DNA of 51,286 nucleotides. Origin: a virus. A program made the translations under genes and the position numbers. Shown here one piece after another: positions 1 to 51,286 of this stretch (position 1 is the stretch's first letter; the number at the start of each line of letters is the position of its first letter). The notes below the pieces were generated by a model. It ran no database searches and was not told the DNA's origin. It was given only the letters and a program-made list of their open reading frames with translations. The stretch covers positions 1 through 51,286 of IMG/VR virus record IMGVR_UViG_3300045919_000132; one strand, 5' to 3'.

Positions 1-28
1 TTCTTGGGGATGGGCGGGTATAGAGGGG
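1..28. repeat. left copy of terminal overlap (G-rich)
   Basis: Bases 1-28 match 51259-51286 with one mismatch (C at 15, G in the other copy). The block has four G-tracts (6-9, 12-14, 16-18, 25-29) with short loops, a G-quadruplex-type pattern. Removing one copy keeps an ORF open across the junction. 28 is not a multiple of 3, so keeping both copies would break that ORF. It is most simply an assembly overlap of a circular map. Confidence 0.8.
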
Positions 29-57
29 GCGTGAACCCTAATTCCAATAAAGTCCAT
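1..57 (-). CDS. small zinc-motif protein between polymerase halves (5' part, continues at 51258)
   Basis: The ATG at 57-55 overlaps the stop of the polymerase N-terminal gene (TAATG). The frame runs off the window start. After collapsing the 28-base overlap it continues at 51258 and stops at 51106, giving 69 residues (210 nt). The N-terminal part is Pro/His-rich. The full product has the pattern C-x2-C followed about 25 residues later by H-x-C, a small zinc-binding signature common in phage accessory proteins. Function unknown. Confidence 0.6.
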   Translation of the reverse strand, partial: MDFIGIRVHAPSIPAHPQE

Positions 58-1241
58 TAATACCTCGTAATGAACACATCTTGAATCTCTCCTGCAAAGT
101 TTTGAAGGTTTGGATCAGAGCTAGACGCTCGGCCAGTCCTTGTGACTACTTGATTAAACTGTCCATGCAACATGCTAGGCTCCCAACCCTTTTCTTCAAC
201 GAGTTTGGGAAGCTTGACGTAATACTCAAGAATCTTAGTCCACTTGGCCCTCGCTTTAAGGATTTCAACAATACCGATCTTATCTTTTAACGTTGATAGA
301 ACTTCGTCGTTGGTGAAGTAGATGCGCCACTTACCTTCTTCCTGAAGCTCATAGGTTGGCTTGTCTTTAGTCTTTTTGACTTCCCATTCGTCTTGAGGTT
401 CAAACAGTCGAGGAAAATGAATCAGGTTCTCTACGGTGCGGTATTTGCGTTGCCCTGCCTTAGCGCCTGTCTTGTATATGCCAATCTGCTCCTGCTCGGT
501 GACAGGAACATAGCCACCAAACAACACAGCGGAAAGATGATCCCCGCTGTCCCAATTAACATCAATGCCTTGGTTGTAAACTCTAAGCTGCTCATGAAAA
601 TCTGCAAGCCTCGCACGAACCTCGACAGCCCTTGCGTGACATAGTTCGGTGTCAATCTTGATCCCATTGTACTCCATCTCCTCTAGAACTTTCAAATCTT
701 CGCACGACAGGCAGAACACCCGGAACATCAGGGGACTGCTCTGAAAGTCTTTCTGCTGCGCTAAGAATAACCATGTAGTTGATTCTACGTCTTGCTGTAG
801 ATACTCGGTGAGTTCGTTTCTTGGAATATCGCAGGTGTTTATTCCTTTGTCCCAGTATTCCAGCTTGATACGATCAATCTTGCGCGGCCCACCGCGTCGT
901 TCCATAGCGCCATCGAGCGACGGATAAACCCACCGCTGCCGTGAGAGAACATACTCCGCAAGCTGGCAGTCCCACAACCGCTTGGTTTGGAACACTTCGG
1001 CGAATCGATCACCCAAAACACGTATCCAATGTAAATCAAACTTAAGATTAAAACCGACAACATGGCTACACCCGACCAAATCATTGTAGAAGTCATCTTC
1101 GCTTTCTCCAGTGTAAAAATGCTTGAACCCTTCGTCTTTCCACAAACATCTCCAACCAGTAACAACTAGCCGGTTGTATTTGGAAAAGGGGGTTCCCTTC
1201 ATGTAGATAGTAGTTTCGGTGTCAAATACGAGTGCTTTCAC
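57..1241 (-). CDS. DNA polymerase family A, N-terminal fragment (3'-5' exonuclease and start of polymerase domain)
   Basis: A 394-residue protein starting at GTG 1241, directly after the helicase stop. It has the three DEDD exonuclease motifs: FDTETT at residues 6-11, GFNLKFD near 63-70 and YLQQD near 147-151. It ends shortly after the family A block RTGRASSSDPNLQNF (about 368-383) and the strand leading to motif A. Motifs A, B and C are missing here and lie in the separate gene 50418-51137. The protein would proofread and, paired with the other half, replicate the phage genome. The split lies between the conserved SSSDPNLQN block and motif A. Confidence 0.93.
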   Translation of the reverse strand: MKALVFDTETTIYMKGTPFSKYNRLVVTGWRCLWKDEGFKHFYTGESEDDFYNDLVGCSHVVGFNLKFDLHWIRVLGDRFAEVFQTKRLWDCQLAEYVLSRQRWVYPSLDGAMERRGGPRKIDRIKLEYWDKGINTCDIPRNELTEYLQQDVESTTWLFLAQQKDFQSSPLMFRVFCLSCEDLKVLEEMEYNGIKIDTELCHARAVEVRARLADFHEQLRVYNQGIDVNWDSGDHLSAVLFGGYVPVTEQEQIGIYKTGAKAGQRKYRTVENLIHFPRLFEPQDEWEVKKTKDKPTYELQEEGKWRIYFTNDEVLSTLKDKIGIVEILKARAKWTKILEYYVKLPKLVEEKGWEPSMLHGQFNQVVTRTGRASSSDPNLQNFAGEIQDVFITRY

Positions 1242-2501
1242 CTATTGAAGAATATCCCTATAACGAGCAATTTCAGGTTCAATCAGAATTTCGGTACGCC
1301 CATGACGAAGACGCGACACGGTATCATCGTCGCCGGAGAGTTTGTTTTTGGAAATGTTAAAGAATCGTACATCCTCAAGAGCGGGGTCATGGGTTTTCCC
1401 AATACCCAGAATCCAATCGGCTTCAGCTTGCTTTGACGTTTTCGCATTAGCTACGTTGTCCATAGTCAGCCATTTTTGTCCTTCTCCTGTTCCATCTGCT
1501 TGGCAGACTCCAATAACTGGGCAATATGCTTTTGCAAGTTCTCTAGCCCAGATATAAATGGCCCCAAGTCGTAGGTCTTCCCGATCCGAATCAAATCCTT
1601 TGACTTTATCAATCTGGTCAAAAAGGATGAGAGAAGGTTTGTACTCTCGAATAATGCGTTCAGCTTCACCTTTAAAGAGCGCAGCACGATCAACGATGCG
1701 AATTTTCGACTTTGTTCTTTCGTCAAACGCCCTAGACCATTTGGGAATATCTCCACATAAGTCACTTTGGGTAATTCCCAGACTAGCTTGATAGACACGT
1801 AGGTTTACCTTTTCACCTTGTTCTTCATTGTTGAACCACAGAATAGGGCCGTCTTCGTCCCGCAACTGCGAAGCCATGTACGTGACTTCCGATGCAAGGA
1901 ACGTAGTCTTTCCTGTCTCTGGCCTAGCAAACACAAACCCAAAGTCACCTTTGCGAAGTGACCCTAGGGACCAGTTAAGGAAATTGATGCGCCACCGTAG
2001 GCCTCGCTTGGCGACCTGTTTATCGACCAACTCTGCCAAATCGTTTGTTACGAACAACTGCTCGGAGGTTTCGGTTTCAATCGGAGTGTCAATCTCCGAG
2101 AGCAACGCAGACAGGTCCGTTAGAGGTTTGGACCCGTTCTGCACATCAAAGGCCGTCAGGCTGATCTGAGATAAGACCTGCTGACGCTTGTACGCTTTGA
2201 GTAGCTCCTGCGCGATCTCTCGATCACTTGGGTTTGAGCGCAGTGAATTGAAGATGTCGTTAAAAACGACGTATTTTTTTTCTGTAAGACCAAGGTTCTT
2301 TGATTTGAAAAAGATTTCAAAGTCATCAACAGTGAAAGATTCTTTTTCAGGAAAAGCTTCGTAAAGAAGCTTAATGAATTCTACAAGAGTAAGTAGTTCT
2401 TTGTTGTTTATTTTATAATTAATAATATACTTATAATATTTATTATATATATCTTTATATAATAATATATTAAGTATACCACATAAAACGTTATCTGTCA
2501 A
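1242..2501 (-). CDS. replicative DNA helicase, DnaB/RecA-like
   Basis: A 419-residue protein with a RecA-type motor. Walker A (ARPETGKTT) is near residues 188-197 and Walker B (LILFDQID) near 289-296, followed by helicase-like loops to the C-terminus. Start is TTG 2501 with GAGGT upstream. It would unwind DNA at the fork with the neighbouring primase; here T7 gp4-type functions are split into two genes. The first 40 or so codons are very A+T-rich (Ile, Asn, Lys, Tyr), unlike the rest. A TGNNTATCGACC copy lies inside the gene at 2017-2028. Confidence 0.9.
   Translation of the reverse strand: MTDNVLCGILNILLYKDIYNKYYKYIINYKINNKELLTLVEFIKLLYEAFPEKESFTVDDFEIFFKSKNLGLTEKKYVVFNDIFNSLRSNPSDREIAQELLKAYKRQQVLSQISLTAFDVQNGSKPLTDLSALLSEIDTPIETETSEQLFVTNDLAELVDKQVAKRGLRWRINFLNWSLGSLRKGDFGFVFARPETGKTTFLASEVTYMASQLRDEDGPILWFNNEEQGEKVNLRVYQASLGITQSDLCGDIPKWSRAFDERTKSKIRIVDRAALFKGEAERIIREYKPSLILFDQIDKVKGFDSDREDLRLGAIYIWARELAKAYCPVIGVCQADGTGEGQKWLTMDNVANAKTSKQAEADWILGIGKTHDPALEDVRFFNISKNKLSGDDDTVSRLRHGRTEILIEPEIARYRDILQ
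2017..2028 (+). repeat. TGNNTATCGACC motif, copy 1
   Basis: TGTTTATCGACC. In the helicase gene it encodes an in-frame Val-Asp pair (GTC GAT) on the minus strand. Confidence 0.8.
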
Positions 2502-4046: not shown

Positions 4047-4630
4047 TATGCCGGACCTCGGACAAGTCCGGGCCTGCGGCGAGGCGGTGCCGTAGCCAAA
4101 CGATTTGCATCCTGCATCTGTCGCAATGCCTCTATAGGATCATAATTCAATCCCTGTGCTTGATTGTTATTTGGCCGACCCACGACACCCTCCACTCGAA
4201 CCGCATTAGCAAGGCCCTGAAGAGGCTGCCGAATAACAGGTTGCTCAAGCCAATCAAAGTCAGCGGGGTTGATCCGGGGCGCATCCACTGCCACTTTAAC
4301 TGCGGGTTTCTTCTTGGTAGCTTTCTCCTCCTGTTCTTTATCCCAATCTTCCTTGCTCAAAGGCTGCAAACGAAATACTTCAATGTTCACGGCAAGTTTC
4401 TCGGGAAATGCTTCCAAATCCTTGTTGAACATGCGGAACACACCGCTGTGCTGTGATTTGAGCGACACCAGCTTGCGGCTGCTCTCAACCACACAGATGA
4501 TGTTTCCGGGAACAACATAGTCCTGAAGTTGGATCGGAAAATAGACTTGAACGGGTTGTCCTAAATCCGTAAAAAACTGAGGATCGAGACGGAAGGATAG
4601 GACTTTATCCTGTTCAACGGCGACTAGCAT
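4046..4630 (-). CDS. hypothetical protein downstream of ATP-grasp gene
   Basis: 194 residues, not recognised. The first 95 residues look like a compact beta-rich fold; the rest is charged and Pro/Arg-rich, ending in a basic low-complexity tail. It overlaps the ATP-grasp gene by 17 bases and the next gene at TAATG, so it belongs to the same transcript as the amide-ligase cassette. It could be an adaptor or substrate of the cassette; there is no direct evidence. Confidence 0.7.
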   Translation of the reverse strand: MLVAVEQDKVLSFRLDPQFFTDLGQPVQVYFPIQLQDYVVPGNIICVVESSRKLVSLKSQHSGVFRMFNKDLEAFPEKLAVNIEVFRLQPLSKEDWDKEQEEKATKKKPAVKVAVDAPRINPADFDWLEQPVIRQPLQGLANAVRVEGVVGRPNNNQAQGLNYDPIEALRQMQDANRLATAPPRRRPGLVRGPA

Positions 4631-5411
4631 TCATTTCTCCCATGAGGTTGACAACTGCATTGGCGTAATTGTTTACCGTTTGGCCCGACAAGCCGGGAGC
4701 GGTGTTGACTTCGAGGACGTAGCACTTGTTTTCTTTTTCGTTGTAGATAACGTCAACGGCTCCGAAGTGGAGTCCAAGTGCCTGTACGGCGGAAACAGCA
4801 AGTTCGTCCAAGCCTGTCGGTTTCTGGATATTCTCTCGGCAAAAAACCCATCCGTTCTGATAGGATCGAACTTGGTAGTTGACTTGATCATTTGGGACCT
4901 CCTGACGTTTCTTTTTCTGTTGACAATCGATTACTTTTCTACCAAAGACATGGACTCGATACTCGTGCTTTTTTGGGATATATTTCGTATACAATGGTGC
5001 ATTTGTAAACTGCTCTCCCGAACACCTGACAATTCCGCGACCAGAGTGCCCGTTAAGCGTTGTGCGCGCAAAAATAGCTCTTTCCGCTGCCCATTGTCGG
5101 GCAACTCCCATATCGGTAGTGAATTCTGGGCACGGTACACCTCTCTCAGCAAATCGATTAAACGTTGCGAGTTTATTAGAAGCAATCGCAACCGCTGCTC
5201 GGGAGTTGACAAGATTGGGGGTGCTGAGTCCCGTTGATGCACTTGATCCCCAATTGATATAAAGCCGGGAGTTTTTGACACGATGCGTCTTCGATTGGTT
5301 ATCGACCTGAAAAACTTTGGATTTGAGTAGTTCAGTTAAGCGTGCTGCTAGAAGGCGCGAGGATGCGCTCCCCATCTTGTACGGCATCAATACGGGTTTC
5401 TTGAGTTTCAT
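4614..5411 (-). CDS. ATP-grasp ligase
   Basis: 265 residues with ATP-grasp features: a nucleotide-binding loop with GHSGRG near 118-125, EYRVHVF in the centre, and a C-terminal metal/ATP segment GAVDVIYN...LEVNTAPGL (about 214-243) carrying the Asp, Glu and Asn ligands. Such enzymes activate a carboxylate as an acyl phosphate and join it to an amine or other nucleophile. Neighbours are a class II amidotransferase and two COOH-NH2 ligases, pointing to peptide or amide synthesis. Substrate unknown. Overlaps the upstream gene by 80 bases. Confidence 0.88.
   Translation of the reverse strand: MKLKKPVLMPYKMGSASSRLLAARLTELLKSKVFQVDNQSKTHRVKNSRLYINWGSSASTGLSTPNLVNSRAAVAIASNKLATFNRFAERGVPCPEFTTDMGVARQWAAERAIFARTTLNGHSGRGIVRCSGEQFTNAPLYTKYIPKKHEYRVHVFGRKVIDCQQKKKRQEVPNDQVNYQVRSYQNGWVFCRENIQKPTGLDELAVSAVQALGLHFGAVDVIYNEKENKCYVLEVNTAPGLSGQTVNNYANAVVNLMGEMNASRR
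5296..5307 (+). repeat. TGNNTATCGACC motif, copy 2
   Basis: TGGTTATCGACC, in frame as Val-Asp in the ATP-grasp gene. Confidence 0.8.
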
Positions 5412-6801
5412 CTTTCTTCTCCGCTCTGTTGAAACGCTTCATAACACAATTAGCGCAAAACACACGCCCGATACCTTTGGTAGTACTCAATTCCACAGAT
5501 GTGAACTGCTGCTCCGCATCTTGAATCAATGCGGCACAATCGTTGCATTTGTGGTGACTTGCAACACGTTTCCAAATGGTTTGTGGAACCCGACGCCTAT
5601 TCCACAACTCAACCATCGTAGGCCCAACAACATCCTTGAGGCGTATCCACGGGCCGTTTACGGTTACCCCGGAAGATACAACTGTTCCGGACAACCAGTT
5701 GTCGCCGTTGCTGTCTTTTTCGGTTGAATCTGCAATGTCTGCTACCTCGCCCGTCCAATCGGCATCTCCGGTAATGTCAATTTGAACTCCCTCAAAAACA
5801 ACATTGCCTGTGGTGGCAACAAAAGGCTGGTTGGTGGCTGTGTTTAAAATACGCTGAAGGCGCGTTACTTTGAACTCAAGTTCTTTGCCAACAGCATATG
5901 GTGCAATGGCTCGTGTCCAAACTTGTCGAATGTCGGAAGTAGGTTCATTAGTTGCCCGCGTCTCTAGCGCCGGAGCAACGACCGCCTTGTCCTTGTCCGT
6001 AGACAAATTAGAGGGGCGGTCAACAAAAGGGTAACCATCTCCACACTCGGATTCACACATACCCGCATAGTTGTGTTGAACCGTAGTGCCCCACGCCTTG
6101 GGCCTGTACTCGGTGGCAGTAAATTCCTCGCCGGTTTGAAATTCCAACATTACGTGGGGATCGAGAGGAGAAGCTTTGCCGATCTTGATGGCACTGTGTC
6201 CGCGACGGGCAGGCCCGGCGGCACCCGCAAGCATCCACGGTTCGGATGCCACCATCCAAAGACGTTCCGTTTCAGCAATCCAGAGAGGACGTTCCGGGTT
6301 ACGTGCAATCCGCAACGTCTTGTCGCGCTTGTCGTACCACACAAGAGCATAGGCACCGACGATGCTTTCCAGCACTTCTTTGGCAGGCTTGTTGTTCAAT
6401 CCACGGGCGAGGGCTTGACTATCGACCGCCGCCTTCTGATCAAACATCTGGGCGTTTCCGATGTATCCATTGTGAATCAGAATAATGTTGTCTTCAAGAA
6501 ACGGATGGGAATTGGCCGATGAAATCTGCCCAACAGTTGCCTTGCGGTTATGCCCAAAAACCATGTTGAATGACCGAGTGATCTTGCTCTTGAATTTGTC
6601 GTACTCCATCAACTCGACAAAGTTGGAAGCATTGGTGCCTTGTTTGGTCAGATACGCCTGCTTGTTCTGATAGACACCAAAACATCCTGTGCCGTCCAAT
6701 CCACGGACTTGGTTCATGAGAAGCATGTCCGTAAATATGTCTGCTTCCGGCGCATAAAAACCGGAAGATTTCTTTGCGATCAAACCAACGATGCCACACA
6801 T
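5332..6801 (-). CDS. class II glutamine amidotransferase (Ntn hydrolase) with C-terminal zinc ribbon
   Basis: 489 residues. It begins MCGIVG, so Cys2 is the expected N-terminal nucleophile after Met removal. RGLDGTG (about 34-40), GHNRKATVG (83-91), NSHPF and HNGY follow, the signature of GlmS/PurF-type glutaminase domains. Residues about 270-489 are a separate region ending in a CxxC...CxxC zinc ribbon. It should release ammonia from glutamine for a partner ligase; no synthetase domain is fused, so the adjacent ATP-grasp or amidoligase proteins are candidate partners. Confidence 0.9.
   Translation of the reverse strand: MCGIVGLIAKKSSGFYAPEADIFTDMLLMNQVRGLDGTGCFGVYQNKQAYLTKQGTNASNFVELMEYDKFKSKITRSFNMVFGHNRKATVGQISSANSHPFLEDNIILIHNGYIGNAQMFDQKAAVDSQALARGLNNKPAKEVLESIVGAYALVWYDKRDKTLRIARNPERPLWIAETERLWMVASEPWMLAGAAGPARRGHSAIKIGKASPLDPHVMLEFQTGEEFTATEYRPKAWGTTVQHNYAGMCESECGDGYPFVDRPSNLSTDKDKAVVAPALETRATNEPTSDIRQVWTRAIAPYAVGKELEFKVTRLQRILNTATNQPFVATTGNVVFEGVQIDITGDADWTGEVADIADSTEKDSNGDNWLSGTVVSSGVTVNGPWIRLKDVVGPTMVELWNRRRVPQTIWKRVASHHKCNDCAALIQDAEQQFTSVELSTTKGIGRVFCANCVMKRFNRAEKKDETQETRIDAVQDGERILAPSSSTLN
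6416..6427 (+). repeat. TGNNTATCGACC motif, copy 3
   Basis: TGACTATCGACC, in frame as Val-Asp in the amidotransferase gene. Confidence 0.8.
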
Positions 6802-6805
6802 AACT

Positions 6806-7702
6806 TTATTGCTTCCTCTTCAGAAAAACGTTGAACGGAGATTCCGTTGAAACACCGGAAAGAAGTTGATTTGTTACTGCCTTCCCGTGGAGAGCCGAGA
6901 ACACAGAATCAATTCCTTTTCGACACAGTTTGAAAATTTCTTTGTGGGCAATTACCTGCATAACATCAGAAGAAAACACATTCTCAAGAAATGCACGGGG
7001 GCCTGTGGACTCAAGAGTTTTATAGACAGTATCTATAGTTGTGCGGCGGGCAAACAGAAGTAGGTCATTGATGATCCGGAGCCACATAAAAACCTTCTCT
7101 TTGTCTCGGCACCCCGGCATGTGTCGGAATTCAACCGTTCCAAGATCAACCAACCGTGTAAGATTCAGCGCACTATATTTCTCCCATGAGCCAACAGCAC
7201 GATGCTGACTAGTGATCAGGTTTCCAATCAAAGTATCGGGATACGTCGTCTCCACAACCGGAACACAAAAGATACTACCTGCCCGGTCAGAGGAGGCGTA
7301 GTCAAATAAAATGCGTTCGACAACACAATAAGTTAACAGCAGAGTTTGTAACTGCTCCCATGAAAAATCGCGCACATTCACATGCACATGGATGGAAGTA
7401 CGCTGCGAAAATGACCAATCCGCAGGAAGCCCGTTCCACATCAAGTCCACAGCTTCGACGATAGCTCCACCGGAGCAGGGTACAGACACATACTCAACGC
7501 CGCCATTTCGAAGACTGCCATCAGTGTGGGAGTTCCACAACGTCCCAAACATCTCGTGCTTGAAGCTACCGTGACGGCTCCTCGCATTCTCAACTTCTAA
7601 CTCGATCCCGCAAACAAAATTGGGATCAAAGGGAGATTCTTTCTTGGACTGCACAACGTCCAATCGATTGGGCCATTGGTACGTCTTAGCGAGGGGCGTC
7701 AT
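6806..7702 (-). CDS. amidoligase (COOH-NH2 ligase, Amidoligase_2-like)
   Basis: Start at ATG 7702 (MTPLAKT), with AAGGA six bases upstream; the longer frame to 7894 runs through the previous gene. 298 residues. Glutamine-synthetase-like amidoligase motifs: GIELEVE near 27, DGSL...GGVEYVS near 60-75, SIHVHVNV near 102-110 and VEFRH near 189. These place acidic, His and Arg residues for ATP/metal and carboxylate binding. Known family members are predicted to form amide bonds between a carboxylate and an amine. A 19-bp dyad lies inside the gene at 7020. Confidence 0.82.
   Translation of the reverse strand: MTPLAKTYQWPNRLDVVQSKKESPFDPNFVCGIELEVENARSRHGSFKHEMFGTLWNSHTDGSLRNGGVEYVSVPCSGGAIVEAVDLMWNGLPADWSFSQRTSIHVHVNVRDFSWEQLQTLLLTYCVVERILFDYASSDRAGSIFCVPVVETTYPDTLIGNLITSQHRAVGSWEKYSALNLTRLVDLGTVEFRHMPGCRDKEKVFMWLRIINDLLLFARRTTIDTVYKTLESTGPRAFLENVFSSDVMQVIAHKEIFKLCRKGIDSVFSALHGKAVTNQLLSGVSTESPFNVFLKRKQ
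7020..7038 (-). promoter_or_regulatory. 19-bp dyad element inside the amidoligase gene, site 2
   Basis: TTATAGA-CAGTA-TCTATAG, 13 of 14 arm bases matching. It is fully within coding sequence, where it encodes an I-D-T-V-Y stretch. It may drive the downstream amidotransferase and ATP-grasp genes, or be coincidental. Confidence 0.5.
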
Positions 7703-8300
7703 ATACTTTCCTTTGAAATACAGGGTGAAGGGGCGTCCTAACCAACGTATCCTCGCTGACCGTCGCGATGGGAGTTTGATGGTGGAACAAAAGAAAATCC
7801 TTAGCTTTGGTAATGCTAAGTCCCACCATAAACTCCGAAGAGATTCCCACACAGTAGCTAGTCCCGTCCTTGAGCATTTGAATAGCCGTTGCAAAGTCTG
7901 GGTATGTGGGCCGGAACATGCTGTCTGCCATCCACAATTCCATGGATGGCATCAGAATCAACCGATTGGTCGTGTAGAAATTCCCACGAGTGGAAGTGCT
8001 GGCACACAAGGCCCGTTTATTTTGACGAATCGGTCGCCGAAAAAAGGAATAGCCGATGTTGTTAAAGTTGAATACCCCAGTTGCAGGAAACTCAAAATTA
8101 ATCTCGCCCTCACCGCCATAACGGACAATCTGCGTTCCCGCCAGTCCCTGCAAAGCAAACGTAGGGGCCGCATTTTCTCCGGGATAGATTGCCGCCAACG
8201 AAACAGTTTCAAACTCCTTGTTCGAGGTGGGTTTGTAGCGAATGTAAGTGTGGAGATAGCGAAGAACAAGGTCTTCGTATAACCGGCCAAAATCAATCAT
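7686..8300 (-). CDS. hypothetical protein within amide-ligase cassette
   Basis: 204 residues, not recognised. Soluble, aromatic-rich, with no clear catalytic motif. It overlaps the type 2 ligase gene by ATGA at its start and the amidoligase gene by 17 bases at its end, so it is co-translated between two ligases. It could be a subunit, substrate-binding protein or diverged ligase. Confidence 0.72.
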   Translation of the reverse strand: MIDFGRLYEDLVLRYLHTYIRYKPTSNKEFETVSLAAIYPGENAAPTFALQGLAGTQIVRYGGEGEINFEFPATGVFNFNNIGYSFFRRPIRQNKRALCASTSTRGNFYTTNRLILMPSMELWMADSMFRPTYPDFATAIQMLKDGTSYCVGISSEFMVGLSITKAKDFLLFHHQTPIATVSEDTLVRTPLHPVFQRKVYDAPR

Positions 8301-9094
8301 GCAAGACCCTGTTCAGCAAACGCACGAATCTCCGGCAAATAACGCTTGTCGGAATTGTTGATGGTGTGAACGATCTTGTAGGAAATGTTGTCACCTGCCA
8401 AACCATTCACATCCGGGAGCGTGGCTTTGCCTTTCTCGACAAAGGTAAGGGCTTTCTCTGTCTGCCGATACGCCCACTCCATCAGTTCCCTCGACTTGAT
8501 CCACGCATTACTCGCGGTGCGATACTCGATGCCATAAGGCTTGCGGCGGAACGCCCCTGCCTTGCCATAGAGTTTGCGTCGCTCGGTGTCTTCGTCAAAC
8601 TCCAACATCTCGCAGCCAACGAACACATCCATTGCACGGACAACTTGCTCAAAGTTGTACTTCTTCCAATCAAAGCCAACATGGATGTGACCACCTGCAC
8701 TGCGAAGATTGGCTGCTACATTGGTCGGCCTCGGATTCTGTTGACGAGTCCACGCATTGAAGTCCGGGTCACACCCAAACACACGGGATTCCGGGGTTTC
8801 AAGTTGCTCCCACGGAAACATGCCGGAAGGCTCGATAGCCAAGACCAAACCCAACTTTTCAGCCTCGGATTTCAAGTAGTCCATATTGTAGTCCAGCTTG
8901 GCAACAAACGACTCGATGCTGTCGCAGGGTGGAATGTTGAACTCGACAGCTACGTTGTCCTCTTGGACAGCACATCCCTCACCGATAGGTTTGGGTGCTT
9001 CCTTGGTTCCTCCGATCAATCCGATGGAAGAAACAAATTCGCCTGCTGCATTACGCAAAAACAATTCCGGATCAGCACCAATAGTGAAGTTCAT
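8297..9094 (-). CDS. COOH-NH2 ligase type 2 (phiEco32-like)
   Basis: 265 residues opening with GADPELF at 6-12, typical of the phage phiEco32-like COOH-NH2 ligase type 2 family. AVEFNIPP near 48-55, GGHIHVG near 131-138 and GIEYRTASNAW near 188-198 complete a glutamine-synthetase-like active-site set. Predicted to ligate a carboxylate to an amine using ATP. It is a second ligase type in the same operon as the Amidoligase_2-like protein, which suggests two sequential or distinct amide linkages. Confidence 0.87.
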   Translation of the reverse strand: MNFTIGADPELFLRNAAGEFVSSIGLIGGTKEAPKPIGEGCAVQEDNVAVEFNIPPCDSIESFVAKLDYNMDYLKSEAEKLGLVLAIEPSGMFPWEQLETPESRVFGCDPDFNAWTRQQNPRPTNVAANLRSAGGHIHVGFDWKKYNFEQVVRAMDVFVGCEMLEFDEDTERRKLYGKAGAFRRKPYGIEYRTASNAWIKSRELMEWAYRQTEKALTFVEKGKATLPDVNGLAGDNISYKIVHTINNSDKRYLPEIRAFAEQGLA

Positions 9095-9672
9095 TTGCAG
9101 AGTCCTTGATAGTTGGATTTACGGCCTTGAAGTGCATACAAATCGAGAACAAACAGAGTGGTCCGCTCATCATCGCCGGGGCGGCTAGAATAGTTCGGAT
9201 TGTAAAACTCACAGGCAATTTCATGCGGAATGGTCTTGATCCACTCTCGCATGGCTACTGACTGTGGGGCTGTTTGAAAAAAGGCGGGAGTTCCGATAAA
9301 TCGCATCGGGAAAACGTGTTTGATAATCAGGTTGAGAACATCCATCCACGCGGTAAATGTAAACGGAAGCGGCTTTTTCGGGGCAAGGAGAGAATTCCTC
9401 AGAACCTCACAAAAATCCCCCATTCCGTTAATAGAAATGGAACTGCACCCATTGAACGAGGTGCTCGTTAAATGCAACTTAAGGGTTTCCCCGTAATAAT
9501 TCTCCCCCCAAGGCAATTCGATCATGTTGGGTGTCGACACCATCTGCACGAGATTGGTTCCACTCACCGGATGAAACCTATTCAACCACTCTCCAAACGT
9601 CGGCAGTTCCGGGGCAGGTTTGACGGAATCAGGGGCTTTGAGAGTTTTAGTGGCGGCTTTAGCAATACTCAT
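9091..9672 (-). CDS. hypothetical protein within amide-ligase cassette
   Basis: 193 residues, not recognised. It has an Ala/Lys/Pro-rich N-terminus followed by a mixed alpha/beta-looking body with many aromatic residues. Overlaps the type 2 ligase at ATGA and the class I amidotransferase gene by 14 bases. Its position points to a role with the cassette; no motif supports a function. Confidence 0.72.
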   Translation of the reverse strand: MSIAKAATKTLKAPDSVKPAPELPTFGEWLNRFHPVSGTNLVQMVSTPNMIELPWGENYYGETLKLHLTSTSFNGCSSISINGMGDFCEVLRNSLLAPKKPLPFTFTAWMDVLNLIIKHVFPMRFIGTPAFFQTAPQSVAMREWIKTIPHEIACEFYNPNYSSRPGDDERTTLFVLDLYALQGRKSNYQGLCK

Positions 9673-10312
9673 GGATCAACTCCTTAACGTAATGATTGAA
9701 CTCACAATCTTGGGGCATAAACTCAGGATGACCTTGGACGGCAAGGGACTTCGTTTTGGGAAACCACACAATCTCAGGCTCACCAAACTTGGCGACATTC
9801 TCCTCCTCTATCTCACTCAACCCCTCATAAACAGAAGAGAGATGCCGAGTAGACCAAGCAATGAGGCGATGATCAACATCAAAAGGATACATCATCTGAT
9901 GATGCACCGAGGAAGTGATGATTTGCCGTTTATCGTCCGTGGTAATCTCGTGGTCACCCCCGTGACGATCCACATGCTGCGCCAATTTACCCCCGGACAT
10001 AGCACATACAAGTTGAGCACCTCGACACACGCCGAGGATAGGCACTCCAAACGCTTGGGCGCACTTGACCAAATCTATTTCGGCTTGATCTTGACGGCTC
10101 GGCTTGTCATTGGCAAACGACGCCACGTTGGGCATACCGTAGATGGAAGGCGAAATGTCGGCCCCTCCCCAAATGATCAGCAGATCATCTTTGGTGGGTT
10201 GATGTGCTTCCATGTCCTTGGGCGTATACGCTTTGATGCCCTCAGTACAAATATCACCAAAGGGATAAATACGTCCGGCACCAGTGCCATAACCTGCGCT
10301 AAAAATCCTCAT
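9659..10312 (-). CDS. class I glutamine amidotransferase-like (peptidase C26 type)
   Basis: Start at ATG 10312 (MRIFSAG); the longer frame overlaps the upstream gene. 217 residues. WGGADISPSIYG near 45-56 and the nucleophile elbow GVCRGAQL (Cys near 95) are typical of gamma-glutamyl-hydrolase-like C26 proteins. SSVHHQMMYP near 132-141 and VQGHPEF near 190-196 supply the His and Glu of the triad. It may cleave gamma-glutamyl bonds or release ammonia. Being next to ligases, it could edit or trim the product they make. Confidence 0.87.
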   Translation of the reverse strand: MRIFSAGYGTGAGRIYPFGDICTEGIKAYTPKDMEAHQPTKDDLLIIWGGADISPSIYGMPNVASFANDKPSRQDQAEIDLVKCAQAFGVPILGVCRGAQLVCAMSGGKLAQHVDRHGGDHEITTDDKRQIITSSVHHQMMYPFDVDHRLIAWSTRHLSSVYEGLSEIEEENVAKFGEPEIVWFPKTKSLAVQGHPEFMPQDCEFNHYVKELIHEYC

Positions 10313-10725
10313 TTCGTTTGCTTGTCCTTTTCGACAGTATAAGTCCACATTTCGATCATGTTGCCGGTATTGGGGTTCTTGAAAGCCTCCCCAATCAAAT
10401 TCCAACCCCCTTCAATCAAAGCATCTTGATATTGGTCAGCGTATTTCCATGAGGTTACCAGCCCCAAGAAAATCTGATTGACGGACCAATCCACCTCGGA
10501 ACTGCGTCGAAAAACTTCAAGAACGTTTTCAAGATTGTCCGTGTCGTATTCGGAACTTTCGGCATCTCCATCAAAGTCATATACATCATCTGGATACACT
10601 TGGAACCCACGAACTTCATGAATTCCACAGCAGCCTCCGTAATCTGTGTCGAAAACGAGAGTTTTCCCAATTTTTACGCTGTCATACTCCCGCGTAATTT
10701 TTCGAGGTTTCTCTACTTTAGGCAT
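10309..10725 (-). CDS. hypothetical acidic protein
   Basis: Start at ATG 10725 (MPKVEKP), with GGGAG upstream and overlap with the previous gene's stop. 138 residues, Asp/Glu-rich, with a Cys-Cys pair in the middle (GGCCG). Function not recognised. Its end overlaps the class I amidotransferase start. Confidence 0.7.
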   Translation of the reverse strand: MPKVEKPRKITREYDSVKIGKTLVFDTDYGGCCGIHEVRGFQVYPDDVYDFDGDAESSEYDTDNLENVLEVFRRSSEVDWSVNQIFLGLVTSWKYADQYQDALIEGGWNLIGEAFKNPNTGNMIEMWTYTVEKDKQTK

Positions 10726-13965: not shown

Positions 13966-14048
13966 TGGTGCCCGATATGGGAGTCGAACCCATATGCTTG
14001 CGCGAGGGATTTTAAGTCCCTTGTGTCTACCATTTTCACCAATCGGGC
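13966..14048 (-). tRNA. tRNA-Leu (UAA)
   Basis: 83 nt including an encoded CCA. 7-bp acceptor stem GCCCGAT/ATCGGGC, anticodon loop CTTAAAA giving UAA, a long variable arm typical of class II tRNAs, and a TTCGACT T-loop. Reads UUA codons. Confidence 0.95.
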
Positions 14049-46311: not shown

Positions 46312-46549
46312 GGTACACATCTCCATTCTCTTTGATTTTTTGTTCTTCGTAAACTCGACCAACACGAGCATAAAACTCTAGTTTAGCGCCTTCAAGTGCT
46401 CCAATAATATCGTTAATAGTCTGGTAATTTTTGCGTGAATCCCAATATTGGATTGCGAGACAAGTAAATGCAAAGTTAAGTTCTCCGGGAGTTTCAGGAG
46501 CACCTGTCAATTCTAAACGGTTTCGATCTTCTTGTTTAATGTAAGGCAT
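46304..46549 (-). CDS. conserved phage protein (81 aa)
   Basis: 81 residues starting MPYIKQEDRNRLEL, with GELNFAFTCLAIQYW and NDIIGALEGAKLEFYARV. I recognise this as a widespread small phage family of unknown function. Placed among nucleotide-metabolism genes. Confidence 0.75.
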   Translation of the reverse strand: MPYIKQEDRNRLELTGAPETPGELNFAFTCLAIQYWDSRKNYQTINDIIGALEGAKLEFYARVGRVYEEQKIKENGDVYRV

Positions 46550-46959
46550 TACACATTCTCCTGATACACTCGTTCACGGTCCATTTGATCTGGTTTCCAG
46601 CGATCATCTAGATCGGGCCGATGTTTCGTAAAATAACTGAGAAACATCCAGCAACAACCAAGGTGATCAACATGAAGTAAACCGCTTTCGGGATCAATGT
46701 CTTCTCCGCGTTGAATAGAAGCAAGATGGCGATGAATTGCAGCAATAAGACGAGAGTAGCTGATACCACCTCGCCAGTTATGTTCAGCATATTTTTTTGC
46801 TCCAAAGGTCAGGACTTGTGCCAGTCCTTCAAGTGCATCAGGGTCAAGCAAATCCATACGAGGTTTGTCTTGATCAAACTTCATTCCCGTCGGAGGGCTA
46901 CCCCCAGTATCAAAATCACTACGTAGAACCCAAGTATCATTCCCAGCATCTTTAGCCAT
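46549..46959 (-). CDS. dATP/dGTP pyrophosphohydrolase-like protein (DUF5664/MazZ family)
   Basis: Start at ATG 46959 with GAGAGGAA upstream; the longer frame overlaps the phosphatase gene. 136 residues with KPRMDLLDPDALEGLAQVL, FGAKKYAEHNWRGG, AIHRHLASIQRGEDIDPESG and HVDHLGCCWMFL, the Glu/Asp/His set of the family. Likely hydrolyses purine dNTPs and shapes the nucleotide pool. No PurZ accompanies it. Confidence 0.82.
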   Translation of the reverse strand: MAKDAGNDTWVLRSDFDTGGSPPTGMKFDQDKPRMDLLDPDALEGLAQVLTFGAKKYAEHNWRGGISYSRLIAAIHRHLASIQRGEDIDPESGLLHVDHLGCCWMFLSYFTKHRPDLDDRWKPDQMDRERVYQENV

Positions 46960-47713
46960 ACTTCCTCTCAAGGTAACCCAACGACACATACATGGGCATA
47001 AAGTGCCCTTCATTGACCTCATGAAACATCCACAATCCTCGGTCATACGTATTGCCTTGCGGACCAAGATAATCCTCATTGTGCGTGTAACACGAGCCTG
47101 CAAACAGCGTAATGATTGGCTTACCATCCCCGCGAACATCTCGATTCATATCCCAATTCTGCACATGGCCCATAACGCAGGACATGTGTTTCTTGACTGC
47201 TAGTTGCCTAGCATTCGGCACAGGACGCCCCATAACCCCTGAAGTGAAATAGTGAGAGTAAGCGATGCCGTCAATAACAACAATTTCAAGAAAAGGATAA
47301 ACTTTCCATCCTGCTTCCGCATACCCTAAGTCTTGGGTGGAGAGGACTCCCTCAAGTTTAGCGTCGTTCTCGACAGCCTTGACAATACGATTTTCATGGT
47401 TGCCAAGAGTGAGGTGGAGTTCCGGAGTATACTGCTTTGACTTATTTTTTCGGCGCTGGTCGTTGTATCGATTAAGTGGCCCAAGCAGAGTAGCCATAGC
47501 TCGCTTTGTTGCAGCAACGTCATCGATGTACCGCCTACCCTCGAATGATTTTTTTCCCACATCATAAGACGAAAGGCTAGGCATATCAGCGAAATCTCCC
47601 AAGCAGATGATTTTTTCAGGCTGCTTTTCAACAATGTACTTACCAATTCGTTCGAGATACTCAATATCTACTCCCGGTTTTACTTGACAATCAGGTACGA
47701 CCAAATGTTTCAT
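46952..47713 (-). CDS. metallophosphoesterase
   Basis: 253 residues with calcineurin-type motifs: DCQVK near 8, GDFAD near 38, GNHENR near 102 and a late GHVQNWDMNR. AAGGAG site upstream. Hydrolyses phosphoesters, possibly of nucleotides or DNA/RNA ends. Operates next to nucleotide-metabolism genes. Confidence 0.82.
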   Translation of the reverse strand: MKHLVVPDCQVKPGVDIEYLERIGKYIVEKQPEKIICLGDFADMPSLSSYDVGKKSFEGRRYIDDVAATKRAMATLLGPLNRYNDQRRKNKSKQYTPELHLTLGNHENRIVKAVENDAKLEGVLSTQDLGYAEAGWKVYPFLEIVVIDGIAYSHYFTSGVMGRPVPNARQLAVKKHMSCVMGHVQNWDMNRDVRGDGKPIITLFAGSCYTHNEDYLGPQGNTYDRGLWMFHEVNEGHFMPMYVSLGYLERKYG

Positions 47714-48446: not shown

Positions 48447-48576
48447 CCATTTTCTCCACAATTTTATAATTTAATAGATGGTCGCCATCAGTAAGAACAA
48501 AATGTATTAAATCTTCCCTTGTGTTAAACTTTTGATATTTAACACCTGTAGTGTACGTCAATTTGGCAAGAATCAT
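48439..48576 (-). CDS. small hypothetical protein (45 aa)
   Basis: ATG 48576 overlaps the exonuclease stop (ATGA) and its TAA lies just inside the next gene. MILAKLTYTTGVKYQKF... alpha/beta. Function unknown. Confidence 0.6.
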   Translation of the reverse strand: MILAKLTYTTGVKYQKFNTREDLIHFVLTDGDHLLNYKIVEKMGD

Positions 48577-49298
48577 GCGTGTACTAACTCCAGTTGCTCT
48601 TGCAAAAACGGCCATTCAATCTCAGGGGTACGGAGAATCCAGAGCAGCTTGTAGTTTAGATTGAAAGCATCTTTGTCGTGGTACAAGTTGTAAGTATAGC
48701 GGAACGCCTCTTCTGGTTCGAGGGCTGATAAATCTTGGAGAGTTCCAAGAAGAAACTGAGGCACTGTGGTTCGGGCACGCCCGTCATATCCCATGACATT
48801 ATCGGATCGGTCACCAAGAACCATTTGCGTCCAAAAGTTTTTCCATCCTTCTTGTTCTGTGACATTCGTAAACTCCTTTTTTACAAAGTTGTAATGACGC
48901 CCCGGTACTTGGAGCAAGTCTTTATCAATAGAGCAGATTACTGTGTCGGTTCCTGTTGTTTGATCAATCCCAAGCTGGTCATCGGTTTCAATCCCGTCAA
49001 CAAAAAAGGCGTCCCAATGATCAACAAGGTAGGCTTGAACGGCACCGAGGTAAGTTGGCGGAGGAGTTGTTCGGTTTGCTTTATATTGTTGGCTAATCTT
49101 TTTGCGGAAGTTTCCTGAGCCGCCAAGAGGGAGGCGATACACAGTTGCTTCGACATCGTGAATAAGGTCTTGTAACAAACCTTCTGTCCGATGTACTGCA
49201 TCGTCCAACGTTTCCAAATAAGGCTTGGATTTCGTGGGTTCGCATGAAGCTGCGCAACGAAATGCAACGATGTCACCATCGATTAAGGCAGTTGTCAT
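48573..49298 (-). CDS. 5'-3' exonuclease (FEN/T7 gp6-like)
   Basis: 241 residues. The N-terminal IDGDIVAFRCA, ETDDQLGI near 103-110, CSIDKDLLQVPG near 122-133 and GDRSDNVMG near 160 carry the conserved metal-binding Asp residues of flap endonuclease/PIN-like exonucleases. Removes primers or degrades host DNA. Confidence 0.88.
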   Translation of the reverse strand: MTTALIDGDIVAFRCAASCEPTKSKPYLETLDDAVHRTEGLLQDLIHDVEATVYRLPLGGSGNFRKKISQQYKANRTTPPPTYLGAVQAYLVDHWDAFFVDGIETDDQLGIDQTTGTDTVICSIDKDLLQVPGRHYNFVKKEFTNVTEQEGWKNFWTQMVLGDRSDNVMGYDGRARTTVPQFLLGTLQDLSALEPEEAFRYTYNLYHDKDAFNLNYKLLWILRTPEIEWPFLQEQLELVHA

Positions 49299-49585: not shown

Positions 49586-49661
49586 TGGTGCCACCTGAAG
49601 GAGTCGAACCCTCGACCAACGGATTACAAAACCGCTGCTCTACCAACTGAGCTAAGGTGGC
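49586..49661 (-). tRNA. tRNA-Thr (UGU)
   Basis: 76 nt with encoded CCA. Acceptor GCCACCT/AGGTGGC, D-arm GCTC...GAGC, anticodon loop TTTGTAA giving UGU, T-loop TTCGACT. The anticodon stem has one mismatch and a G-U pair, so it is slightly irregular. Confidence 0.93.
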
Positions 49662-50417: not shown

Positions 50418-51137
50418 TTATTTAACTTCTACTAAATCTTTCAGATTCATTCCGGTAAAAATCTCGCAGCGAAGAGGCAGGTTGAAGTCTACTTTAAACC
50501 ATTCTTTGAACCTCGCAGGAGCGTCATCAAAACAGGATTGAACAATCTTTACAACATGATCAACCATATCACTAGGACAATCAATGTCAATTGAATCATG
50601 AACTGTTGATATGAGTCGGACCCCAGACACGAATAAGTATCGCAGACGAGCAAACAAAAGAGTCCTAACAATAGCCATGAGGTCATGTCCGAGTCCTTGT
50701 ACTGGATAATTCAAGATTTGGGTACGGGGCCATTTCATTTCACCCCGAGGGCTACTAACAGGAGCAAACTCATACTCCCGGCCAGTAGGCACAACCAAGC
50801 GCCCACGATTGCGGATGACGGTTTGAACCCAGTTTGTGTGCGTTTCTTGGAGAACCTTGTATTTTGCGTAAGCTTCATCGATTACTTTCTGCCAATATTT
50901 AGGGGACGTAGATACGTGTGTAAAGTCAGGATCATAAGCATATGCGTAGGCAGTGCCGCCGTAAATGAGGCGAAAAAGAAAAAACTTAGCGATTCGTCTC
51001 TCAGGCAAACTAAATCGAGAGCGGTTGATTTCATGCATATCAACATTGTCCATTATCTCCTGCATACCTACGGGGTCTTGTGAGAGGTAACATGCTCCTA
51101 TCCACTCAAGTTGTCTGGCGTCTACGTGAACGATCAA
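50418..51137 (-). CDS. DNA polymerase family A, C-terminal fragment (palm and fingers)
   Basis: TTG start at 51137 with GAGGA six bases upstream, opening directly at motif A (IVHVDARQLEW). Motif B RRIAKFFLFRLIYGG near 47-61 has Phe at the T7 Tyr526 position. Motif C STVHDSIDID lies near 176-186. 239 residues. Exonuclease motifs are in gene 57-1241. Both catalytic Asp sites are present, so the two fragments could assemble into one enzyme. Confidence 0.9.
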   Translation of the reverse strand: MIVHVDARQLEWIGACYLSQDPVGMQEIMDNVDMHEINRSRFSLPERRIAKFFLFRLIYGGTAYAYAYDPDFTHVSTSPKYWQKVIDEAYAKYKVLQETHTNWVQTVIRNRGRLVVPTGREYEFAPVSSPRGEMKWPRTQILNYPVQGLGHDLMAIVRTLLFARLRYLFVSGVRLISTVHDSIDIDCPSDMVDHVVKIVQSCFDDAPARFKEWFKVDFNLPLRCEIFTGMNLKDLVEVK

Positions 51138-51286
51138 ATTCTTTCCTCGCTTTACATAAATGTAGGCTTTGGTTTGGCGTTTCCAATCTCCATTTGTTGT
51201 TTCGATTTACCCACACCAATCCGTAATAATGACAATGCTTACATGTAGCAGTTTGAAGTTCTTGGGGATGGGGGGGTATAGAGGGG
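51106..51286 (-). CDS. small zinc-motif protein between polymerase halves (3' part)
   Basis: This is the C-terminal part of the 69-residue ORF that starts at base 57 across the contig junction. It carries TCKHC near residues 24-28 and LHLC near 51-54, so four candidate zinc ligands, then a basic tail rich in Arg. Its last codons overlap the start of the polymerase C-terminal gene (TTG at 51137) in another frame. It could be a minimal HNH-like or zinc-finger protein; I cannot tell which. Confidence 0.6.
   Translation of the reverse strand, partial: PSIPPHPQELQTATCKHCHYYGLVWVNRNNKWRLETPNQSLHLCKARKEFDRSRRRQTT
51259..51286. repeat. right copy of terminal overlap (G-rich)
   Basis: Partner of bases 1-28, with a single C/G difference inside a G-run. 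Its place inside the DNA polymerase locus, with polymerase halves on both sides, argues for circular closure rather than a physical genome end. Confidence 0.8.

Follow-up and report, generated by a model that had tools for sequence, protein, structure and literature searches.

The polymerase locus at the ends of the window

The DNA analyzed here, referred to as the window, is a viral sequence of 51,286 nucleotides (IMG/VR record IMGVR_UViG_3300045919_000132), recorded as a single contig of the class 'linear'. Its two ends carry the two parts of a DNA polymerase gene, termed N-half and C-half in the following (Table 1). Pfam DNA_pol_A matches the N-half with an E-value of 4e-13 and the C-half with an E-value of 7e-15. 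The exonuclease residues DTE, NLKFD and YLQQD are visible in the translation of the N-half; the Pfam match to the exonuclease falls short of the cut-off (19.5 vs 23.6 bits), but PHROG 9556 covers the region. In the C-half, motif A comprises D6 and E11, motif B reads RRIAKFFLFRLIYGG and motif C is VHDS. The DNA_pol_A matches, the three motifs and the N-terminal 3'-5' exonuclease domain identify the protein as a family A DNA polymerase.

Table 1. Features of the window, with positions on its full length
Feature	Position	Strand	Basis or remark
N-terminal half of family A DNA polymerase: 3'-5' exonuclease domain and polymerase up to the loop before motif A	57..1241	-	Pfam DNA_pol_A, PHROG 9556/17
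C-terminal half, polymerase motifs A, B and C; TTG start	50418..51137	-	Pfam DNA_pol_A 154-379; start codons of relatives align
Motif A catalytic Asp codon GAC, in frame	51120..51122	-	sequence
Shine-Dalgarno-like GAGGA, 6 nt 5' of TTG; polymerase-frame codons 'KRGKN'	51144..51148	-	sequence
Zinc-motif ORF, first part; ATG overlaps N-half stop (TAATG)	1..57	-	sequence
Zinc-motif ORF, second part (C-x2-C...H-x-C); stop within C-half	51106..51258	-	numbering assumes collapsed 28-nt overlap
Contig-end overlap of 28 nt with bases 1-28	51259..51286	.	27/28 identical
DnaB-like replicative helicase, adjoining the N-half	1242..2501	-	Pfam, PHROG
Exonuclease, 3' of the C-half as in MEP401	48573..49298	-	database match
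tRNA-Thr(tgt), between the C-half neighbour and the exonuclease	49586..49661	-	
tRNA-Leu(taa)	13966..14048	-	
ATP-grasp, glutamine amidotransferase, amidoligase, phiEco32-like COOH-NH2 ligase and peptidase C26 cluster	4614..10405	-	
dATP/dGTP diphosphohydrolase N-terminal domain protein	46549..47139	-	PF18909

The N-half stops short of motif A after 394 amino acids (C-terminus ...SSSDPNLQNFAGEIQDVFITRY*), and the C-half of 239 amino acids opens at motif A with (M)IVHVDARQLEW, which is in frame and uninterrupted. Residue 2 of the C-half aligns to position 378 of the Klenow chain, immediately before the catalytic D705, while the sequence-matched domain of the N-half runs to the PNLQN motif, after which 12 residues remain. 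By this mapping, the cut would lie between the two strands leading into motif A. In the AlphaFold model of the read-through polymerase of a relative (L005), the exonuclease domain and the C-half were predicted confidently, whereas confidence was low around the split (pLDDT below 50 at 332-376 and 385-388; TM 0.32), where the model is too weak to be used.

The 28 nt shared by the window ends contain one mismatch (C/G, base 15). After collapsing this overlap, 177 nt separate the N-half stop from the TTG of the C-half, and the two halves are in one reading frame with two stops between them, including that of the N-half. A 69-codon ORF with a C-x2-C...H-x-C pattern, the zinc-motif ORF, is coupled to the N-half stop and ends with a TGA within the motif A codons of the C-half (CTTGAG). 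The initial annotation had described this anatomy, from the position of the two halves relative to motif A to the coupled small ORF, and it was reproduced from the sequence in all these points.

The genes across the junction are ordered as primase, helicase, N-half, small ORF, C-half, an unknown gene, exonuclease, endonuclease and phosphoesterase, which is the order found in the isolate MEP401. Since the gene order equals that of MEP401, the join, which is based on this order and on the overlap with its one mismatch, can be regarded as sound in outline. Missing or misjoined sequence at the contig ends is therefore an unlikely explanation of the split, although the window ends fall in the spacer, the record is classified as linear and the overlap is imperfect. 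The collapsed join yields a TAATG coupling and an open ORF, and the split itself is present in isolates. Moreover, additional spacer sequence would leave the main conclusion unchanged.

Elsewhere in the window, the gene cluster with the ATP-grasp and ligase genes suggests a peptide or cell-wall modification pathway. The PF18909 protein is of a type known from phages whose nucleotide pools are modified.

Distribution of the split among relatives

A search of viral contigs with the N-half as query provided 80 loci and a scan of genome contigs only eight; the census comprised 129 distinct loci holding both halves. All loci with at least 33 % identity to the window N-half are cut at one same point, except for L054, and the split point was identical in all but one of about 60 individually inspected IMG/VR relatives. 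The N-half of the relatives ends with ..SRY or similar, and the C-half opens with MLIQGDA, MLLQADA and the like. Its start codon lies exactly 10 codons 5' of the motif A Glu in 96 of the 105 distinct in-frame loci. Polymerases with 28-31 % identity to the window N-half are unsplit, and a tree of the N-half places split and unsplit sequences on opposite sides of a fully supported branch (SH-aLRT 100). The window forms the deepest branch of the split clade, a basal placement that is weakly supported (82). These comparisons indicate that the split clade is monophyletic and that the window belongs to it as a MEP401-type split polymerase, with two ORFs cut before motif A and a C-half beginning at the same start codon.

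The distance between the halves varies widely. In 46 rows of the census the ORFs overlap, one of these (L347) being an unsplit gene; two rows have 0-20 nt between the halves, the rest 21-1281 nt and one 3598 nt. The overlap commonly amounts to 17 nt, and a direct TAG-ATG abutment also occurs. MW202796 has a gap of 3.6 kb between its halves that contains a methyltransferase gene among others. Small ORFs in the spacers of the relatives are unrelated to each other and in many cases coupled on both sides, and some spacers contain none; the ORF types include R67 dihydrofolate-reductase-like proteins, winged helix proteins, membrane proteins and acidic small proteins.

For the zinc-motif ORF of the window, searches of Pfam and PHROG gave no match and the best phage matches were weak (E-values of 0.2 or higher), so that its assignment to a known family was rejected. 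The possibility of a nuclease remnant was likewise rejected due to missing similarity. On present evidence, this ORF is a passenger of the spacer. A role as a functional third subunit assisting the assembly of the halves is quite improbable. The ORF is translationally coupled to both halves, and small coupled ORFs are found in many relatives, but the spacer ORFs are unrelated between clades and absent from dozens of loci.

In MEP401/402 (OM43 phage), the DNA polymerase has been described as encoded by two ORFs that flank a small one, and the presence of an intron was left open (PMC10580990). A spacer that is, or is part of, a self-splicing intron would yield one polymerase upon splicing. Group I introns are common in phage polA and a probable one with an HNH ORF is found in L054, though at motif B. 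However, the Rfam search detected no intron at the 51.3-kb end of the window and none in the MEP401 spacer, and a group I intron in the spacer was rejected as no core was detectable at these two places. In addition, relatives with ORFs overlapping by 17 nt or with abutting TAG-ATG leave no room for an intron, other spacers extend to 3.6 kb with unrelated genes, and the start codon of the second half is conserved. The comparison across relatives thus argues against the published intron possibility, which appears very unlikely. A split intein was also rejected, since by inspection the halves end with RY-stop and begin at a start codon 5 residues before the motif A Asp. The Pfam matches of the window include no intein domain.

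L054 is nested in the split clade and contains both halves in one gene, connected at the split point by a short loop, SRYKDGVLLNYD. Its polymerase is a re-fused gene. It is interrupted at motif B (..KFR-stop) at positions 5353-6034 with an HNH ORF within. This interruption is a probable group I intron (RF00028, 27.4 bits, E-value 8e-5, under the gathering cut-off). An HNH ORF related to that of L054 is located at L095:2464-2901, and L339 has a stop at the same place after KFR.

A recent insertion of the zinc-motif ORF into the intact polymerase gene of this phage, as proposed in the initial annotation, is hardly tenable despite the common frame of the halves and the neat coupling of the ORF, since the whole clade is split, whether with no spacer, with an overlap or with other genes between the halves, and one branch explains this. 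On the N-half tree, which includes unsplit relatives, this one branch carries the split and the window is basal inside the split group. The shared frame is uninformative because halves in a common frame occur in 35 of the 129 distinct split loci, which is approximately the expected third. The residues KRGKN, previously thought to complete a missing loop, are encoded by AAG CGA GGA AAG AAT, which is the Shine-Dalgarno region of the C-half and not a lost exon. The Shine-Dalgarno stretch before the C-half start of the window reads AAGCGAGGAAAGAAT-TTG. A near copy of it is found in L092 (AAGAGAGGTAAGAC-TTG; AGAGAGGTAAGAC-TTG), 15 nt past the N-half stop and out of frame.

Motif A interruptions, spacer nucleases and RNA hairpins in relatives

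In 17 relatives, the frame of the C-half is broken by -1 to +8 nt a few codons past the catalytic Asp. These are distinct cases after grouping the broken C-halves at 97 % nucleotide identity. The interruption is -1 in L001, L112 and L118 (GCA AAG|CA), +1 in L083, +2 in L035 (CTC TT GAG) and L186 (CTT TA GAA), and +4 in L187 (CTT-C-CTT) as well as L266 and L268 (CTT-T-CTT). Six loci have a +6 interruption with a stop directly after the take-off codon, namely L191 (CTT TAG CTC), L092 (CTT TAG CTG), L339 (CTT TAG CTA), L267 (CTG TAA CTG), and L188 and L346 (CTT TAG CCC). The interruption is +8 in L189 (CAA..CAG) and L314 (CTT..CTC). The interrupted loci are also itemized as L001, L112, L118, L186-L191, L266-L268, L314, L339, L035, L083, L092 and L346. 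In all insertion cases other than L188 and L346, the landing codon encodes the same amino acid as the take-off codon, and skipping the extra bases exactly restores D-A-K-x-L-E-W or its local equivalent. Take-off and landing codons are identical in some cases only; the other pairs are synonymous and read by different tRNAs.

Several other explanations for the broken frames were considered and rejected. Past the break, dN/dS was 0.11-0.13 in two sets of related broken loci compared to 0.07-0.20 in intact controls. The codons downstream of the break are still under purifying selection, which speaks against dead genes. Random assembly errors do not account for the breaks since they cluster at one spot, recur across metagenomes and accompany the nuclease described below. 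The same interruptions were found again in divergent sequences of different metagenomes, and apart from the motif A breaks, internal stops were limited to one in 202 N-half matches and one early-ending C-half. A rescue by a second intact C-half was rejected as each phage record checked contains one copy. Reading UAG as a sense codon was excluded as well, because two residues would enter the D-x4-E spacing of motif A and UAG terminates genes at some of the loci. The C-half of L346, located on a contig of a Pseudomonadota MAG, shows the stop-hop pattern at motif A along with another interruption about 140 residues downstream. Further matches are present in this MAG, among them a second one of full length on a different contig.

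An endonuclease VII-like ORF (PHROG 3322/1035) is located in the spacer of 15 distinct relatives, for example at L001:2567-2992 between the polymerase halves. Its core reads S-I/L-D-R-I/K-D...KGYT..N...N..K. Motif A is broken in 13 of these 15 loci compared to 4 of about 100 without a spacer nuclease (Fisher p 5e-12, before allowing for kinship). The two exceptions are L095, with an adjacent nuclease and an in-frame motif A containing an AGA codon, and L372, in which another small ORF separates the nuclease from the C-half. On the C-half tree, nuclease and interruption each change 11-12 times. In about seven independent pairs on well-supported branches, the two traits changed in the same direction in 6.2 on average and never in opposite directions (median p 0.03). 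The closest nuclease-free relatives of L001, L112 and L118 are in frame. The spacer ORF of the relatives may be a homing endonuclease with its cleavage target at motif A. The spacer of the window, which holds the zinc-motif ORF, gave no nuclease match in Pfam or PHROG.

Ten of the 17 broken loci can form a stem of 6-13 uninterrupted pairs, extending from the start-codon region to the codons just 5' of the break. The same stem is found in 5 of 62 intact loci; against a null of 5.6 %, the binomial p is 4e-9, uncorrected for kinship. Minimum free energies are also lower in broken than in intact loci (p 0.001). In six loci sharing one register, each of the 36 pair cells holds a standard pair, and pairing deteriorates in every slid register. 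Two pairs of this register change on both sides (CG/GC; CG/AU/UA/UG), and the other four are invariant and hence uninformative. The start codon in the six-locus register is TTG, compared to ATG in most intact loci. The stem is absent from the -1 loci, L083 and L266-L268. The window contains a weak 4-bp remnant of the same stem register. As a speculation, this remnant and the TTG start would suit a lineage that has lost the element.

Proposed origin and comparison with known systems

Taken together, the locus is best explained, with a probability of roughly 0.87, as a two-subunit family A DNA polymerase that was ancestrally split before motif A, with small genes accumulating at the boundary and an endonuclease VII-like homing endonuclease as the likely origin. 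A single split, placed at the palm beta-hairpin tip that immediately precedes motif A, would date back to the common ancestor of the MEP401-type phages and their relatives, a clade of aquatic phages of which most are uncultivated. The halves would be separate cistrons of one operon, with the N-half stopping at ..RY and the C-half initiating at its own ATG, GTG or TTG, either by its own ribosome-binding site or by coupling. Both products would then have to join non-covalently, and the precedent of gp43A/gp43B suggests that they work as a heterodimer. The boundary may serve as a settling place for small genes, which in the window would be the TAATG-coupled zinc-motif ORF. The endonuclease VII-like homing endonuclease is presumed to have caused the split and to make use of the site to this day. 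Its role as cause of the original split is likely, as suggested solely by its recurrence in the spacer of at least 15 distinct relatives.

In the relatives, ribosomes would move from the take-off codon onto a synonymous one, frequently skipping a stop codon (CTG-TAA-CTG, CTT-TAG-CTC), and an mRNA hairpin ending at the take-off codon could aid this slip or hop. The pattern of interruption, nuclease and hairpin fits a homing endonuclease combined with programmed ribosomal bypass, as known from T4 mobA/gene 60. By this analogy, motif A would be recoded, the interruption would protect from cleavage, and the nuclease would have had a role in the original split. It is probable that the relatives thus carry a miniature, repeatedly evolved version of the T4 arrangement, consisting of a homing endonuclease in the spacer, a 1-8 nt interruption of motif A at its target and a programmed, hairpin-aided slip or hop to a synonymous codon. 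The split polymerase would be its long-term footprint, and the window may have lost the element.

A replicative polymerase produced as two polypeptides and cut beside the catalytic Asp would represent a split enzyme that occurs naturally throughout a large clade of phages. The locus also offers about ten independent bypass candidates, all of them 10 codons past the start of an essential gene and open to simple reporter assays. It thereby allows direct tests of how homing endonucleases, gene fission and recoding are connected. To our knowledge, no phage bypass other than that of T4 gene 60 has been studied thoroughly. According to a 2016 review, known cases of bypassing are scarce and no natural in-frame stop-hop was known.

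Among the known systems, the MEP401-type is most similar to the window, having a family A polymerase in two ORFs with the same cut, a small ORF between them and the same gene order. The window differs by its identity of approximately 39-45 %, a different spacer ORF with the zinc motif and its TTG start. The polA genes of SPO1-type phages, Bastille and Pf-WMP3 are also interrupted close to a catalytic motif, and an HNH nuclease is frequently present. However, these interruptions are spliced group I introns, whereas none was detected in the window. The spacer nuclease of the relatives resembles F-CphI and other homing endonucleases with an endonuclease VII motif in being free-standing and in its PHROG endonuclease VII similarity, but it lacks the DHDH pattern of the F-CphI family (PMC6083498).

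Replication enzymes encoded by two cistrons with a homing endonuclease or spacer at the boundary are also found in the Aeromonas phages 25 and 44RR (gp43A/gp43B) and in T4 (39/60 with mobA). For the T4-like Aeromonas phage 25, gp43A and gp43B were reported to co-purify and to be active (PMC2988022). While gp43A/B is a family B polymerase and T4 39/60 a topoisomerase, the split described here concerns a family A polymerase and is clade-wide. Of the hallmarks of the T4 39/60 type, the window has neither a spacer homing endonuclease nor a bypass at motif A; the relatives have a spacer nuclease in 15 distinct cases and interruptions in 17. In T4 gene 60, an upstream structure drives take-off, and the 50-nt insert is thought to protect against the neighboring mobA nuclease (PMC5009743). 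The bypass in gene 60 is located near the start of the second gene, whereas the interruptions in the relatives of the window span -1 to +8 nt and lie about 10 codons into the C-half, within a catalytic motif.
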